Source: a virus. From it: a stretch of DNA of 24,710 nucleotides. Positions 7,729 through 14,377 of the stretch are shown in pieces. The notes under the pieces are model-generated. The model ran no database searches, was not told where the DNA came from, and worked only from the letters and a program-made list of their open reading frames with translations. Both the position numbers and the translations under genes were made by a program. The stretch lies in the IMG/VR virus record IMGVR_UViG_3300025383_000101, positions 1 to 24,710 of that record. One strand, 5' to 3'. How positions within the stretch are numbered: position 1 is the first letter of the stretch; the number at the start of each line of letters is the position of its first letter.

Positions 7729-9660
7729 CTATTTTTTATGTGCTGGATTTGGTGTTGTAAAATCTTTGGGGGACATTGAAACAAAATTAGACATGGATGT
7801 TGGATTTTTACGAACCCCATCAAATACAGAATCGGTAATAGTACCTTCAGATTTATGGTAAAATGTTACATTAACATTTTGTGTAGTAGGTTGTGTTGTT
7901 GGACTATTTTTACCAGTTACTTTATCCCATCCTTCTTTAGCAATGTCCAATGCTTTATTTGCGGCATTACCTATTGCATTTGTCATACCAACTATTTTAT
8001 CTTCTGCCTCTTTTGATGAACCATATATATTTTTTTTCTTATCTTCTTCACTCATATTATTCAAAGCACTCTGCATACTTTTTCCAAGTTCGCTCTTTAA
8101 GAAAGCAGTACCTGCACCTCTAAGATATTGTGCTGTTTGAACTCTATAATATGATGCCACAACATCCAAATCTCTTACCATTTTTTGAGTTTCAGTTAAT
8201 TGACTCATAGCAATTGCTTTAGAATCCATTTTTTCAAATTGTTTTTGATATTCTGTCAATTGCGTTACTTGTGAACTTGTAAGTTTATCCATTGCAATTT
8301 CTGTAACATTACCAAAACTTTTTTGTAGAGATTCGGGAACGACTATTTTCATCTCACCACCTTCCATACGTGACATATTGATAAGAAATTCCTTATCCTT
8401 GTCATTCATATTACTTGTAATACTGTTAGCCATTAAAGCATTTGTTGCAGACATTCTTTCCGCACCTGCTATTGCCGATTTTGTAAGTTCTTTATAATCA
8501 ACTCCTAAAGCATTAGCCATTTCATGTGCCTTTCTTATATTGATACCTGTAATTTCAAATTTACCTTGTTCTTGATTATATGTTGCTAACCCTTGTGTGG
8601 CACCAATTAATGCGTCTTGTAATCCTTCCACATTATTTGTTGCCATATACATCAATTTGATTGGGTCATTAAAATCACCCATAGCACCACCTAATACCTG
8701 TAAACTTGCAGATAATTCAATAGCCTTTTCAGGGGTAAAAACATTATCAGCTAATTTGAATACTTGATCCATACTCATTCTAAATTCAACAGCCTTTTGG
8801 GACATTCTTTCTAAACCTTGTATTCCATTTTGAAAACCATATTCATTTAATCTACCGATTTGTTCTGTCATAGTTTTACTAACCGTTCTCGCATTTAAAC
8901 CTAAACCAATAGTTCTTGTTGCCGCATTATCTAATTCTTTAATTGTTTTATCAACACCTAAACCAACTGTTTCATATTGTGACATGATATCGGCCATTTC
9001 ACTCATAGTCTTACCTAAAACAGTTGCAACAGGTGCTGCAGAATCTAATATACCCCTATTAACTAAAGCAAATTTTCCTGAATTATCGGATAATTTAGTA
9101 TAAAAATCTCCAAGTTCATTTATAGTAATACCATATTTACTTGCCTCAATTGAAGCTTGTTTCATATCGTCCTGTAAACCTTTTGATAATTCACCACTAA
9201 TACCTGTCTTAGAATTAATTTCAGTTAATAATTTAGATTCATTTGTTAATTCTGTATTTAATGCTTGTATAACTTCCGCACCACCTTTTTGAATTAATTT
9301 AGCAGGATTTAAACCTCCTTTACCAAGAACATTAAGAATCGAACCTGCAGCATTTTGTTCTTCTTTTGCTCCGAATTGTGTTGATATAATACCATTTATA
9401 CCATTCGCTAAACCTCTTGTAAAATCACTTAACATTCCACCTAATCTACCTACAAATGTACTATTAGCAGCCTTAGTAAAATAATCACCACTTGTTACAT
9501 TTTTTATAGCATCACCTGTAGAACCGTATCTTGCGGAAGTTGGTGCCTTTTTAGATAATGTTTCAAAAACATCATCAGGCATACCGGCAGCCTTTAATGC
9601 TTTTTCATTACCACCATTAGCTTCATATCTTTCAGACCAATTAATTTTTGAATCTCCCAT
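7729..9660 (-). CDS. Tail tape-measure protein candidate (gp29-like)
   Basis: A 643-residue, mostly alpha-helical, Ala/Gly/Met-rich protein. It lies directly downstream of the tail chaperone and its overlapping frame and upstream of baseplate genes, the classic slot of the tape measure that sets tail length and runs through the tube lumen. The N-terminal region has Gly-rich, moderately hydrophobic stretches (FVGRLGGMLSDFTRGLANGI, residues about 69-88); the central part (about 180-480) is a long series of amphipathic helices of tape-measure type (MSEMADIMSQYE, MTEQIGRLNEYGFQNGIQGL); the last 60 residues are Thr/Pro/Ser-rich. T4 gp29 has 590 residues, so the length suits a T4-sized tail. No lytic enzyme motif is visible. 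Position and composition support the call; no signature motif proves it. Confidence 0.7.
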   Translation of the reverse strand: MGDSKINWSERYEANGGNEKALKAAGMPDDVFETLSKKAPTSARYGSTGDAIKNVTSGDYFTKAANSTFVGRLGGMLSDFTRGLANGINGIISTQFGAKEEQNAAGSILNVLGKGGLNPAKLIQKGGAEVIQALNTELTNESKLLTEINSKTGISGELSKGLQDDMKQASIEASKYGITINELGDFYTKLSDNSGKFALVNRGILDSAAPVATVLGKTMSEMADIMSQYETVGLGVDKTIKELDNAATRTIGLGLNARTVSKTMTEQIGRLNEYGFQNGIQGLERMSQKAVEFRMSMDQVFKLADNVFTPEKAIELSASLQVLGGAMGDFNDPIKLMYMATNNVEGLQDALIGATQGLATYNQEQGKFEITGINIRKAHEMANALGVDYKELTKSAIAGAERMSATNALMANSITSNMNDKDKEFLINMSRMEGGEMKIVVPESLQKSFGNVTEIAMDKLTSSQVTQLTEYQKQFEKMDSKAIAMSQLTETQKMVRDLDVVASYYRVQTAQYLRGAGTAFLKSELGKSMQSALNNMSEEDKKKNIYGSSKEAEDKIVGMTNAIGNAANKALDIAKEGWDKVTGKNSPTTQPTTQNVNVTFYHKSEGTITDSVFDGVRKNPTSMSNFVSMSPKDFTTPNPAHKK

Positions 9661-9679: not shown

Positions 9680-9871
9680 TTAACTATTTTCTGATTGTTT
9701 TTCAATTAGAAAGTTGATATAATATCTCCTTACAAATATCGGCATACTTAAAACATCACCATAAGTAAAACCTCTGGTAATTAAAAATAAAATCTCATCT
9801 AATTGAATTTTCTTATAATCCGTAGAAAGGGCGAAAAAATTCAACCCCAAATCCAATTTCAATTTGGACAC
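9680..9871 (-). CDS. C-terminal extension of the tail assembly chaperone, probably made by frameshift
   Basis: A 63-codon frame that overlaps the last 59 bases of the 249-residue chaperone ORF in the +1 frame. The distinctive part lies after the overlap: residues about 19-60 (DYKKIQLDEILFLITRGFTY, GDVLSMPIFVRRYYINFLIE). Helix, 'GFTYGDVLSMPIFVRRYY' and a final helix resemble the short C-terminal domain found at the end of tail chaperones or in a small separate ORF of T4-like phages (from memory). The only start in the overlap is GTG at 9871-9869, with an AGGAG just three bases before it, a poor spacing, so independent initiation looks weak. A ribosomal shift at TTT TTT CGC (9831-9839) would produce a 293-residue fusion. 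A one-base indel in the T6 run, either natural or from assembly, is the alternative. Confidence 0.65.
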   Translation of the reverse strand: MSKLKLDLGLNFFALSTDYKKIQLDEILFLITRGFTYGDVLSMPIFVRRYYINFLIEKQSENS

Positions 9872-10562
9872 TATCTCCTGATGGGGTGGTTACTGTTTGG
9901 GTTAAATCTAACCCTGGTTTATTTTCTGCAACGTATTTTCTAAAATCTTGAGAGTCTTTAATTGGTAAACTTTCAATGAATTGACGTATAGACATTTGTT
10001 CTTTATTACCCCCAACTGATTTAATCATAAATTCAAGTTGTTTTGTAATAACAGGTGCAACTCCATTACCATTCCAACTTTTTCTAATTTCATCAATTTC
10101 TTTTTCTTGTTTCATTGTTAAAAACTGAAAAGTAATGTTAGTCTTACTTTTTTCCATATAGAATGGATATTCACCATTTACATCTTCTTCTAATGTAAAA
10201 TCTTTAACCTTAAGTTGACTTAAATCAACGTCTACACTAAATTGTTCATTTGTTTTTGGGTCATTTGCAGTTAATGTGTATTCTGATCCAAAAGCGGTAT
10301 TTCTTAAAAATATTAAAACAGCTTGTCTATCTTCTTCTACAATTTCATCAACGGATAAATCTTTATCAATAATTTTTCTTTTTAATAATTCATCAACCAC
10401 TTTACCTGAAGCAATTAAATTTTGTGATGATAAAATATTTTCATCTGCTGCAGTTAAATAAGCTACTCTTACTGATTTCTTTTTATTTTTATAGTAAATT
10501 CCTTTAGTTGGTAATTCTACTACATCGTATGCAATTGTTGGGTCTATTCTATAATCTTCCAT
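9813..10562 (-). CDS. Tail assembly chaperone / gp26-type T4 baseplate protein
   Basis: A 249-residue protein with the features of the T4_baseplate family (gp26 type): an N-terminal LPTKGIYY motif (residues about 18-25), then VRVAYLTAADENILSS (about 32-47), a helical block containing the KVVDELLKRKI segment, an acidic beta region, and a C-terminal TPSGDSVQIEIGFGVEFF. Proteins of this family act in tail or hub assembly and are not simple virion parts. It sits between the tail tube and the tape measure, the standard position of tail chaperones that wrap the tape measure. Its 3' end overlaps the next frame by 59 bases (see the frameshift entry). The leader contains no conserved late box; it has TATAAACTTATATT before ATG. 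Confidence 0.75.
   Translation of the reverse strand: MEDYRIDPTIAYDVVELPTKGIYYKNKKKSVRVAYLTAADENILSSQNLIASGKVVDELLKRKIIDKDLSVDEIVEEDRQAVLIFLRNTAFGSEYTLTANDPKTNEQFSVDVDLSQLKVKDFTLEEDVNGEYPFYMEKSKTNITFQFLTMKQEKEIDEIRKSWNGNGVAPVITKQLEFMIKSVGGNKEQMSIRQFIESLPIKDSQDFRKYVAENKPGLDLTQTVTTPSGDSVQIEIGFGVEFFRPFYGL
9831..9839 (-). promoter_or_regulatory. Candidate programmed frameshift site (TTT TTT CGC)
   Basis: On the coding strand the chaperone frame reads GAA TTT TTT CGC CCT. A tRNA-Phe that has read UUU could move one base forward onto UUC, a better match to its GAA anticodon, while the next zero-frame codon CGC is likely slow in this AT-rich genome. This gives residue 243 followed by ALSTDYKKI of the overlapping frame. 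A -2 slip reaches the same frame with one extra residue. A -1 slip enters a frame that stops after about a dozen codons, so it is not favoured. Confidence 0.5.
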
Positions 10563-10663: not shown

Positions 10664-11152
10664 TTAGTATACTAAGATACATCTATCCATTCTTAAAGTA
10701 GCTTGGATAGTAGCCAATTTATCGTCTGAGTAATCTAAGTTTTGGAAATCCAAATCAGATAAGAAAGTACCTTGTAAAATCCATTTTTCAACTACTACAC
10801 CTGTTGGGTCTAATAATTCTAATTCTACATCCTTCTTATAACCAGCAGCATAACCCATACGACCTGTAACAGATTCTGCATGTAAACGGAACCATTCCAT
10901 AAGTGCTTGAGCTGCAGATGGTCCAATTGGATCTCTGAATACTACGTTCATAGTTTCCCACTCAAATCTACCTGCAACATAAGTTGATGTATTTAAAAAC
11001 GGAATTGGAGTAACGTTAATTTTAGCTTTAGGTCTTGCAGCCGATTGTACATACCATTCGTTGATACCCAAAGATGATGGGAATCTTAGTATAAATCGGT
11101 TGACTCTTTTCGGTTCGTAAGGAACCGGCATTTTCATTAGTAAATCTGCCAT
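10664..11152 (-). CDS. gp19: Tail tube protein (gp19-like)
   Basis: At 162 residues it is nearly the same length as T4 gp19 (163). The sequence fits the family: N-terminal MPVPYEPKRVNRFILRFPSS, then GINEWYVQSAARPK (loop before the next strand), FEWETMNVVFRDPIGPSAAQ and MEWFRLHAESVTGRMGYAAG, ending with strands ELELLDPTGVVVEKWILQGT and a final ATIQATLRMDRC. Hexameric rings of this protein stack to form the rigid inner tube driven through the envelope on contraction. It is monocistronic in appearance: a conserved promoter-like box lies 36 bases upstream and a strong terminator follows. Confidence is high from sequence and from the adjacent sheath gene. Confidence 0.95.
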   Translation of the reverse strand: MADLLMKMPVPYEPKRVNRFILRFPSSLGINEWYVQSAARPKAKINVTPIPFLNTSTYVAGRFEWETMNVVFRDPIGPSAAQALMEWFRLHAESVTGRMGYAAGYKKDVELELLDPTGVVVEKWILQGTFLSDLDFQNLDYSDDKLATIQATLRMDRCILVY

Positions 11153-11458: not shown

Positions 11459-14377
11459 TTAGATATTTTCAAATGAAGCTCCTGTTGGAGTGATAACAAA
11501 CTCTAAATCAATGAATTCTAAAGAACGAGTTGGTTTCACATAGATTTTACCTCTAAGTGTGTTTGCGTCTATATCTTCAGGTGCACTTGATACAGTTACA
11601 CGGAAGTCATATAAACCTCTTTCTTTCTTGATTGCTTCTAAGATAGGATTTACCAATCTTAAGAATTCTTGTCTTACTTGGTCATCATTTTGTTCAAATA
11701 ACAAACGTACTGCAACTGCGGAAATTAATTTCCTTGCTCTTAATAACAATCTTCTTACGTTAATTCTGTCTAATGCAGACTCTCTAACTTGTAAAGTTTT
11801 GTTACCCCAAATGATTGTTCCTGTATCAGAGAAAGTGGCAATTGGGTTGATTCTATTTTTATATAAATTATCTCTTTCGTCTAAAGTTAATTTCTTTTGT
11901 GCTTTGATTGCATTTACTAAACCTCTTGAATAACCCGCAACCGCGAACCAAGGATAAGATACGTTGTCAGTTAAGGCAATATTCTTAACAACTTCACCTG
12001 TTGGTGGGATATATAATTGAGTTGCATTATCTGTATCTCTAATTTGTATCCAAGGCCAGTATGTTGCTGAATAGTTAGAATCAATCGAAACTGAATCCAA
12101 ATCATCAACCACATTTGATGCATCTGTTTCATTTGGTGCACCAATAATATAAATTGAATCGGCCCTATCGTTTTCAATCATGTCAATTGCTTGAGTAACA
12201 AGAGAACTATGATTTAAGAAATCAATACCCGGTGTAGCAAATACGTTGATATCAACTGCCTCAGGATTTTGATATGTCATAATACCTTGTAAGTATGCAT
12301 AATAATCCGAATTTCCAACTGTAGAACTGAATACACCACCGTTATTCGTATTACCTGAAATATATGTGTGAGTATTGAAAATATATTGGTCGGTGTTAGT
12401 TCTTACATTTCTGTAGATATCCCAACCATCAAAACCACCAAATGCAGCAAAAGTAAACTTACGATAGTTAATATCTGTTAATTTGTTATTTGTTGGGTCA
12501 GATTGACCTTCTAAATCATATGGAGTTGTAATGTATGTTGTTCCTGTAATTGTTGATGCGTTTGTTGATAAGTGGAAACCTTTTGTAGTTCCTGATGCAG
12601 TTACACCTTTAAACTTCAATAAATCACTATCATAGGTAAATGCATTTTGACTTGATAAACCTAAAGATACTTTCTTATATTTGTCACCACTTGACAAAAC
12701 TGGTGTTCCGTCTGGCTTATAATACATTGTTTCACCTGGGTCAAAATAATTTGTTTTATATGTAACAGCACCTAATTTACTATCGTCACCAAAACTATTT
12801 TTATTTGTAAATCCTTTAAAACCAGCAGGTACCGCATCCACAGGAGCATTATCTGCCATAGTCAACATAATATATTTTGAGTTTAATGTATATTCACCAT
12901 CAGATGTACCGATTTTGTTTGCAATATATCCTGCAACATCAGGGTTCATTGAACATCTTGAATATTTTTCTAATACTACTATATTATCATCAGTATCATT
13001 AAAATCACGTACTAATAAATCAAATTCACCTGAATCTAAATTAATATTTTGTATTGTAATTTTTACTTGATTGTTAGCAGATTCACCATCCGAAATAGTA
13101 ATAATGTTAAACAACTCGTCAACTTTACCACCACGAACTTCAGAAACAACTGTATTACTCATTGGAGTATCAAATTCTTTTATGAAATCAGTAGATGCAT
13201 CATCAACAACATATGTAAGTTGTAAACCTCTAATTTTACCTTGTTCGAAAGCGTTTTTCAACCAATTAGGATAAACCTCATGAACATAAACCGGATGGTC
13301 TACATATGATTGGTCATAATTCTCAACTCCCAAAACTTTAGTAATATATTTTGAAGATGTTTGATCTAAAGAAATTGTGAATGATTTATGTCCACCTGTA
13401 GTACCTGTAACATCAATTTGGAATTCTGCTAATGGATTTGATACAATACCACCTGTATCTGTTAATGAAATATTTGAGTTTTGTGTTACTTCTAAAACTA
13501 AATTTTCTTGGTGATAATGACCTCTTGATCTTAAAGCCGCAACTACAACATTATCATAGTCAGCGTCCATTGACGCCAAAAATTCATATCTTACAACTTG
13601 AAATCCATCAGTTACACCAGTACTTGGTACTGTAAATGTATAGCTTGCAACATCATAAATGGTTGTTTCGTCACCTGGAACCGATTCACGGAAACAGGTA
13701 TTATACCATTCTTGTCTATTTTCATTTTCAGCATAAATTTTTCCTGTTAAAGGTGATACTTGTTCTTTATTACGATTCAAAAGTAAAAATTGATCATAGT
13801 TACTACCTTGAGGAACTAAACCAATTTGGAACCATTTTCCAATATCAGAATTTGTTAAACCACTAAATTTTTCACTTATATATGTTAATATTGGTGTACC
13901 GTCATATGCTGTTACACCTGATAAATCCACATAAATATCAGATGCCGTTGGATTATTAGGGTCAAACATGTGATCTGAAGCGGTATTACCTGTATAAGTT
14001 CCTGCTAAATACTCCTCTAAATGGTCTACTAAAATACCACCTTGAGAAACGATACCAAATGTTTTACCTGGATTATATCCTGTTAAACCTAAAACTCTTG
14101 TTACAAAAAGTTGATTTGACTCTTGTAAATAAGATTTAGCAACATATCCTAATTCATATTTTGGATTATTTGCTCCGTCCTTTTCAGGAGAAGTTGGTCC
14201 GAAATATGACTTATAATTGTCAAAACTCGAAATTAAAATTGGTTCGAATGCTGGACCTTGTAAAGTCTCACCCACTAAACCTAATGTAGTTACACCTACA
14301 CTTTGTGCTACGAATGTTAAATCTACCTCTGAAGTGTAAACACCAGGAGATACAAAAACTCTGTTATTACTTGCCAT
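11459..14377 (-). CDS. gp18: Tail sheath protein (gp18-like)
   Basis: The N-terminus has the sheath signature FVSPGVYTSEVDLTFVAQS followed by GLVGETLQGPAFEPILISS and a YFGP segment (residues 8-62). The C-terminal 150 residues carry the conserved sheath core: LQVRESALDRINVRRLLLRA, AVAVRLLFEQND, LVNPILEAIKKERGLYDFRV and a final strand pair. At 972 residues it is about 300 longer than T4 gp18 (659), with the extra sequence in the middle (roughly residues 110-750), where surface-exposed protrusion domains lie in gp18. The gene has its own promoter-like box 33 bases upstream and its own terminator, consistent with high, separate expression. The protein polymerises around the tube and contracts on infection. 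Confidence 0.95.
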   Translation of the reverse strand: MASNNRVFVSPGVYTSEVDLTFVAQSVGVTTLGLVGETLQGPAFEPILISSFDNYKSYFGPTSPEKDGANNPKYELGYVAKSYLQESNQLFVTRVLGLTGYNPGKTFGIVSQGGILVDHLEEYLAGTYTGNTASDHMFDPNNPTASDIYVDLSGVTAYDGTPILTYISEKFSGLTNSDIGKWFQIGLVPQGSNYDQFLLLNRNKEQVSPLTGKIYAENENRQEWYNTCFRESVPGDETTIYDVASYTFTVPSTGVTDGFQVVRYEFLASMDADYDNVVVAALRSRGHYHQENLVLEVTQNSNISLTDTGGIVSNPLAEFQIDVTGTTGGHKSFTISLDQTSSKYITKVLGVENYDQSYVDHPVYVHEVYPNWLKNAFEQGKIRGLQLTYVVDDASTDFIKEFDTPMSNTVVSEVRGGKVDELFNIITISDGESANNQVKITIQNINLDSGEFDLLVRDFNDTDDNIVVLEKYSRCSMNPDVAGYIANKIGTSDGEYTLNSKYIMLTMADNAPVDAVPAGFKGFTNKNSFGDDSKLGAVTYKTNYFDPGETMYYKPDGTPVLSSGDKYKKVSLGLSSQNAFTYDSDLLKFKGVTASGTTKGFHLSTNASTITGTTYITTPYDLEGQSDPTNNKLTDINYRKFTFAAFGGFDGWDIYRNVRTNTDQYIFNTHTYISGNTNNGGVFSSTVGNSDYYAYLQGIMTYQNPEAVDINVFATPGIDFLNHSSLVTQAIDMIENDRADSIYIIGAPNETDASNVVDDLDSVSIDSNYSATYWPWIQIRDTDNATQLYIPPTGEVVKNIALTDNVSYPWFAVAGYSRGLVNAIKAQKKLTLDERDNLYKNRINPIATFSDTGTIIWGNKTLQVRESALDRINVRRLLLRARKLISAVAVRLLFEQNDDQVRQEFLRLVNPILEAIKKERGLYDFRVTVSSAPEDIDANTLRGKIYVKPTRSLEFIDLEFVITPTGASFENI

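Follow-up and report, generated by a model that had tools for sequence, protein, structure and literature searches.

The window, i.e., the whole 24.7-kb virus record analyzed here, carries a T4-type tail module on its minus strand. Genes for the sheath, the tube, ORF1 (249 aa), a 643-aa protein in the tape-measure place and a 1567-aa protein follow one another in this order (Table 1). ORF1 matched PF12322 (T4_baseplate) with 42.1 bits, the curated cut-off being 24.5, and the baseplate hub family phrog_150 with an E-value of 5.7e-12. The AlphaFold2 model of this short form had a pLDDT of 85 and was matched by Foldseek to viral baseplate hub and gp26-type proteins, with a best E-value of 5.8e-27 and a value of 1.4e-15 for the hub protein of SP-15. 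Against PDB structures, the model yielded no significant match; the HK97 gp13 chaperone fold (2OB9) came up for the TAC-N model with an E-value of 3.4 only. The 643-aa gene gave no significant family match with Pfam and PHROG profiles. In the 972-aa sheath protein (window 11459-14377), Pfam sheath-domain matches were confined to residues 687-963, which suggests a large insertion or added domains ahead of that part.

ORF1 is located between the tube gene and the putative tape-measure gene, as frameshifted tail chaperones are. Frameshifting of tail chaperones is textbook knowledge for lambda-like phages; for T4-like phages, a different mechanism with two genes is reported. In most cases the shift occurs in the -1 direction on X_XXY_YYZ, and a fixed ratio of both products is needed for assembly.

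Table 1. Features of the tail chaperone locus, in window coordinates.
Feature	Position	Strand	Remarks
Tail tube gene, upstream of ORF1	10664..11152	-	phrog_4542, E 8.4e-25
ORF1, short tail assembly chaperone (TAC-N, gp26-like)	9813..10562	-	249 aa; PF12322
Putative tape-measure gene, next after ORF1	7729..9660	-	643 aa; by place and length only
Stem-loop upstream of the site	9844..9887	-	base 7 nt before P-site codon
Outer stem, 5' arm ACCCCA	9882..9887	-	paired in 98% (set A3) and 95% (set A4) of cells
Unpaired, near-invariant TCAGGAGA between stems	9874..9881	-	synonymous constraint
Inner stem, 5' arm GTCCAA	9864..9869	-	variable
Inner stem, 3' arm TTGGAT	9851..9856	-	variable
Outer stem, 3' arm TGGGGT	9844..9849	-	ends 7 nt before P-site codon; covariation, RNAalifold
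E-site codon TTT	9837..9839	-	TTT 134, TTC 3 of 137
P-site codon TTT	9834..9836	-	TTT in 137/137; predicted tRNA-Phe slip to TTC 9833-9835
A-site codon CGC, rare Arg codon	9831..9833	-	CGN in 137/137
+1-frame extension (TAC-C)	9680..9835	-	51 codons from TTC, then stop 9680-9682
ORF1 stop TAA	9813..9815	-	seven codons past P-site codon

Extension in the +1 frame

The 3' end of ORF1 reads GGG GTT GAA TTT TTT CGC CCT TTC TAC GGA TTA TAA, and the +1 frame over this end reads AAT TTT TTC GCC CTT TCT ACG GAT TAT AAG and continues to its own stop. A +1 shift would yield a fused product of 293 aa with the predicted junction ...IGFGVEFFALSTDYK.... An earlier note on this DNA had described a 249-codon ORF overlapping a +1 frame, with TTT TTT CGC near its end, and this was borne out by the sequence and by a comparison of 161 loci with 137 distinct ORF1 sequences. 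An IMG/VR scan contributed 80 relatives with 66–100% identity, and a second, alignment-based scan contributed 80 more, a few of them repeats, with identities down to about 37%. The overlap in the +1 frame and the conserved extension were present in 161 of 161 loci (ORF1 identity of 37–100%), with the same overlap geometry in every one. The extension comprises 46–66 codons with the consensus FxLS[ST]xYxxxxLDExxxLxxxxxxSYxDixxMPxxxRRYxxxxxxE; it was complete in 156 of the 161 loci, and the others were truncated by contig ends only.

The remaining two frames across the extension were closed in 132 of 132 cases. The -1 frame closes 2–74 nt past the ORF1 stop, and the extension lies in the +1 frame instead. 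In the window, the non-overlapping extension is open with P of about 0.013 by base shuffling of this one sequence. Since pN/pS of the extension, although near that of ORF1, is saturated for distant pairs, variability was counted by codon position. At 70–85% ORF1 identity, it amounted to 0.27, 0.19 and 0.47 at positions 1, 2 and 3 of the extension and to 0.21, 0.14 and 0.40 in ORF1; third positions in the +1 frame thus vary most, as they do in ORF1. Four contigs from other samples (L001–L004) have an ORF1 100% identical to that of the window and the same bases including the T6 run. Since they agree, a sequencing error at this run, which the earlier note had left to be verified, was excluded.

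A direct family search with the window's own extension gave no match. In the alignment it is tied by 37% identity to the extension of L117, which matched phrog_634 (baseplate hub assembly catalyst) with an E-value of 4e-5. The same family was matched by the C-terminal 47 aa of T4 gp51 (2.8e-7) and by a small ORF that is annotated separately in cyanophage Sf-FS3 (4.7e-25). Judged from these matches to phrog_634, the extension family and the gp51 C-domain are homologous. Since residues 1-201 of T4 gp51 and T4 gp26 both belong to PF12322, this homology indicates that ORF1 alone represents the short chaperone and that ORF1 joined to the extension corresponds to the long form. One PF12322 gene was found in each of 13 large relative contigs (121–297 kb; some may be incomplete), compared with two in T4. 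Some T4-like phages possess one short and one longer fused gene and no frameshift, as the study of Vladimirov et al. 2022 is summarized by the authors of PRFect (PMC10885494).

The +1 overlap geometry also occurs in an immuto-like lineage, Mel-JY01, LR756508, SP-15, Streptococcus phage GXN1 and RM378, and the overlap of Pseudomonas phage QdP_Psa3 is likewise in the +1 frame. In cyanophage Sf-FS3 (L171:3130-3390) and Rhizobium phage IC12 (L172:3600-3860), the gp26-like gene ends with T_TTT_TTC, and a gp51-C-like ORF, annotated as a separate gene, follows in the -1 frame. A -1 frameshift may take place at this T_TTT_TTC, and the -1 overlap looks like a third solution beside the +1 overlap and two genes. 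A distant chaperone relative in a Bacteroidaceae MAG from goat reticulum (L282:2001-2700) has CTT TTT CGT near its end and is without an extension; a long ORF resembling a tape-measure gene begins at its stop codon.

In Mel-JY01 and Flavobacterium phage immuto, the extension has been filed as a separate hypothetical gene, starting at TTG and at an internal ATG, respectively. These annotated starts and the GTG at 9871 in the window would agree with an independent small gene that is translated from its own start by translational coupling. However, 47 of the 161 loci have a +1-frame stop (GTAGAR) at most 12 nt ahead of the shift codon, and in many relatives TAG stands in the +1 frame directly before the site. 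Moreover, 49 of the 161 loci have no ATG, GTG or TTG between the upstream +1-frame stop and 8 codons past the site, and in these 49 FxLS[ST]xY is already conserved in the codons ahead of any possible start. The refuting case named in the earlier note, relatives with the second frame as a separate gene that has a good start of its own, did not hold. An independent gene, which we consider exceedingly improbable, stands refuted for this family, short of translation from an unusual start codon, and the annotations of Mel-JY01 and immuto should be corrected.

It follows from the upstream stops and the missing starts that the shift is confined to a stretch of about nine codons (9815-9839 of the window). 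Its most likely place is 9831-9839, since in many relatives a +1-frame stop stands right before AGT/AAT TTT TTC. The interval 9813-9871 given in the earlier note holds as the start-to-stop overlap counted from the GTG at 9871, but not as the place of the shift.

The shift site

The site UU(U/C)_UUU_CGN was kept, together with the overlap and the extension, in all loci compared. The codon ahead of TTT TTT varies (GAG, GAA, GAC, CAT, TCT, GCC, AAC), and the A site is CGN. Among the 137 distinct sequences, the A-site codon was CGC in 56, CGT in 40, CGG in 29 and CGA in 12, counts that are not adjusted for shared ancestry among sequences diverging to 37% identity. Elsewhere in ORF1, Arg is encoded by AGA in 82% and by CGN in 8.7% of cases, with CGC at 0 of 1159 and CGG at 0.2%. 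TTT accounts for 83% of the Phe codons elsewhere in ORF1, compared with all of them at the P site. In two relatives, CGC and CGG reach at most 0.3 per thousand codons. TTT_CGN occurs in frame a single time among the 6912 codons of the window.

A class of UUU_C +1 sites was predicted by Firth et al. 2012 (PMC3498833), and amalgaviruses use each of the four CGN codons (Nibert et al. 2016; PMC5052127). A shortage of one host Arg tRNA was considered and is unlikely, since all four CGN codons are used here and one relative encodes tRNA-Arg(ACG). The 269-kb relative G001 carries 22 tRNA genes in about 7 kb (L176-L189), including Phe(GAA), Arg(ACG) and Arg(TCT).

In the genomes of two relatives, UUU_CGN occurs in frame 15 and 9 further times, so UUU_CGN alone is not a strong shift site. 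The genome-wide counts, 16 observed versus 23.2 expected and 10 versus 13.2, show a mild deficit at most, and avoidance of UUU_CGN is not convincing by itself. In G001 and the 212-kb G005, in-frame UUU followed by a codon starting with C is about 30% rarer than expected (192 versus 281 and 165 versus 231).

The earlier note had given the direction as +1 or -2. A -2 shift on the T6 run, similar to that of phage Mu, the known natural case (PMC3498833), would lead to the same destination frame, with T6 letting tRNA-Phe re-pair two bases back, and would give an extension with an extra Phe (VEFFFALSTDYK). The predicted junctions differ, being ...GVEFFALSTDYK (FF) for +1, i.e., ...EIGFGVEFFALSTDYK in the window, and FFF for -2. 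However, re-pairing of the Mu type is impossible in the TTCTTT and UUU_CUA members: in the former (L040, L041, L094, L170, L085 and phage GXN1) it would put Phe-tRNA on UCU, and the latter (L084, L211, L222, L233) are not permissive. Variants without T6 still keep UUU_CGN, and the CGN constraint at the A site is a requirement of a +1 site. Sites in the immuto lineage are UUU_CUU_UGG, UUU_CUA_UGG, UUU_UUU_UGG and UUU_CUU_UAC, all with the +1 frame; UUU_CUA is compatible only with a UUU_C slip. A -2 shift is therefore very unlikely, and the variants argue for +1.

Interrupted T runs bear on transcriptional slippage as well. RNA polymerase can slip on T runs, and a one-base deletion or a two-base insertion would join the frames, giving a heterogeneous mRNA population from which the extension could be translated. 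Six T are short, however, the overlap stays where TTCTTT variants interrupt the run, and the A-site CGN constraint and the upstream stem would be left unexplained; we regard this explanation as scarcely credible. A +1 shift in which tRNA-Phe moves from UUU to UUC and an extended tail chaperone is made, as the earlier note had proposed, is the reading best supported by the comparative evidence.

The upstream RNA stem-loop

The strongest synonymous constraint in ORF1 was found mostly in its last 22 codons, at Ser228, Gly229 and Gly239, followed by the shift site. Ser228 is TCA in 118, Gly229 is GGA in 132 and Gly239 is GGG in 130 of the 137 sequences, with GGG making up 10% elsewhere. The 57 nt before the site are ungapped in 112 distinct sequences and follow the pattern RCCCCR-UCAGGAGA-[inner stem]-YGGGGU-NGANUUU-UUU. 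Its second element, UCAGGAGA (9874-9881, minus strand), is an AGGAG-like octamer with almost no codon-level variation in the family.

The two arms of the outer stem co-vary. The third bases of Pro227 and Phe238 change together as A-U or G-C (Fisher P of about 1e-8 for the nearer set, uncorrected; tree-aware P of 0.015), as do those of Ala/Thr226 and Gly239 as C-G or A-U (tree-aware P < 0.001), the tree-aware test having also flagged one unpaired control pair. Same-branch co-changes were few for the stem in a test that is low in power. In both sets, the covariation score of the outer stem exceeded 500 of 500 shuffles and all slid controls. Without guidance, RNAalifold recovered the six-pair outer stem in the first set and four pairs in the second.

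Folding energies were compared with those of codon-resampled sequences encoding the same protein. For the 54-nt stretch whose end lies 6 nt upstream of the P-site codon, the mean z-score was -2.4, a value reached at the hairpin position only, whereas windows elsewhere in ORF1 were at about -0.3. In the immuto lineage, a hairpin of its own terminates at this position (z-score of -1.85), and one forms there as well when the sequences of Mel-JY01, LR756508, GXN1 and SP-15 are folded singly. Taken alone, the window sequence forms a stem no more stable than dinucleotide shuffles. An Rfam search gave no useful family match.

Other stimulators were considered and rejected. First, for a downstream structure, 91 nt past the site were folded in eight relatives, and the z-scores ranged from -1.2 to +1.0. 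Second, Shine-Dalgarno stimulation of the RF2 type was rejected as a conserved feature since the bases 3–8 nt upstream vary.

The frameshift could also be real and the upstream conservation reflect another regulatory site, or pairing of GGGG/AGGAG with the anti-Shine-Dalgarno sequence. GGGG and TCAGGAGA are nearly invariant and resemble anti-Shine-Dalgarno partners, and the folding z-score of single sequences is modest in several members. Compensatory wobble–wobble changes (GCC..GGG to GCA..GGT; CCA..TTT to CCG..TTC), the sliding controls and a folding z-score that peaks exactly at -6 nt argue against such a site, which is rather unlikely. On test constructs, a refolding hairpin near the E site raises +1 and weakens -1 shifting on 70S and 80S ribosomes (PMC6321510). 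The upstream hairpin is probably the stimulator of the +1 shift.

Proposed mechanism and known systems

Comparison of the loci yielded the overlap, the coding extension, the need for a frame change, the identity of the site, the gp51 homology and the RNA stem. From these we infer that a programmed +1 frameshift in a single tail chaperone gene very probably yields a C-terminally extended form. Absent from the earlier note were the CGN constraint at the A site, the stem-loop upstream of it, the gp51-C homology and the two-gene state of T4.

The proposed model covers the shift itself, its efficiency, the stimulatory role of the hairpin and the role in assembly. The majority of ribosomes would stop at TAA (9813-9815) and produce the short, gp26-like form TAC-N. 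A minority would pause with UUU in the P site and the slowly read CGN in the A site, where tRNA-Phe (GAA anticodon) could slip by one base from UUU to UUC, which offers better pairing. Reading would continue in the +1 frame, giving TAC-NC of 293 aa with a gp51-type C-domain. The upstream hairpin, whose base lies 7 nt to the 5' side of the P-site codon, may refold behind the ribosome and either push the mRNA forward or block backward slippage. The two forms would coat the tape measure through the N domain and recruit the tube through the C domain, like lambda gpG/gpGT; these roles are taken from established knowledge on lambda gpG/gpGT and T4 gp26/gp51.

Each of the three elements, frameshifting in a tail chaperone, a UUU_CGN site and a refolding hairpin, is known separately. 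The combination of all three in a T4-type chaperone gene was not found described in the searchable literature, the study of Vladimirov et al. 2022 aside. The site is accompanied by a seemingly natural, conserved case of a 5' refolding hairpin for +1 shifting, which searchable papers show only for test constructs, and the mechanism can be tested directly on 70S ribosomes with more than 100 natural variants. We see about an even chance that the sites belong to a widespread class of +1 shifts on bacterial ribosomes in which a UUU_C slip goes together with a rarely used sense codon and a conserved refolding hairpin, without a stop codon or an internal Shine-Dalgarno sequence, and that is ancestral in T4-type phages, i.e., older than the gp26/gp51 split in the T4 group and the -1 sites elsewhere. 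Given a single gene with the +1 site in many T4-type phages, possession of two genes is one among several solutions at this place, namely the +1 shift proposed here, an apparent -1 shift at T_TTT_TTC (cyanophage and Rhizobium phages) and duplication in T4.

The locus resembles T4 gp26/gp51 in that ORF1 belongs to PF12322, the extension family is akin to the gp51 C-domain and the N domain is common to both forms. T4, however, encodes the short form and the longer fused form in different genes, in contrast to one gene with an overlapping +1 frame. Vladimirov et al. 2022 reportedly describe gp26 and gp51 as tail assembly chaperones of T4-like phages. With lambda G/GT, whose frameshift was reportedly described by Xu et al. 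2004, the locus shares the place before the tape-measure gene and a short and a long form obtained by changing frame shortly before the first ORF ends. In lambda, slippage is -1 and takes place on a heptamer, whereas here a single tRNA would slip by +1 and the N domain is of the gp26 family.

RF2 (prfB) also combines a one-base slip in the P site with a slowly read codon in the A site, and an mRNA duplex likewise forms behind the ribosome. It differs in its stop codon (CUU_UGA) and an internal Shine-Dalgarno sequence 3 nt upstream, compared with a sense codon and an intramolecular hairpin. The -2 shift of phage Mu and the -1 shift on GTTTTT in Vandenendeviridae (PMC12846349) are both recoding events in myovirus tail chaperones and differ in direction and slippery site. 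Influenza PA-X, with UUU_CGU (PMC3498833), and plant amalgaviruses, with UUU_CGN (PMC5052127), have UUU in the P site, CGN in the A site and the +1 direction in common with the phage site, which shares the use of four CGN codons with the amalgaviruses. These viruses are unrelated and use 80S ribosomes, in contrast to DNA phages on 70S ribosomes, and the conserved upstream stem adjoining the site is absent from the descriptions of PA-X and amalgaviruses. The refolding-hairpin test constructs (PMC6321510) have the same arrangement; in the phage locus, a hairpin base 7 nt before the P-site codon goes with UUU_C, neither a downstream structure nor an internal Shine-Dalgarno sequence, and a slow A-site codon.
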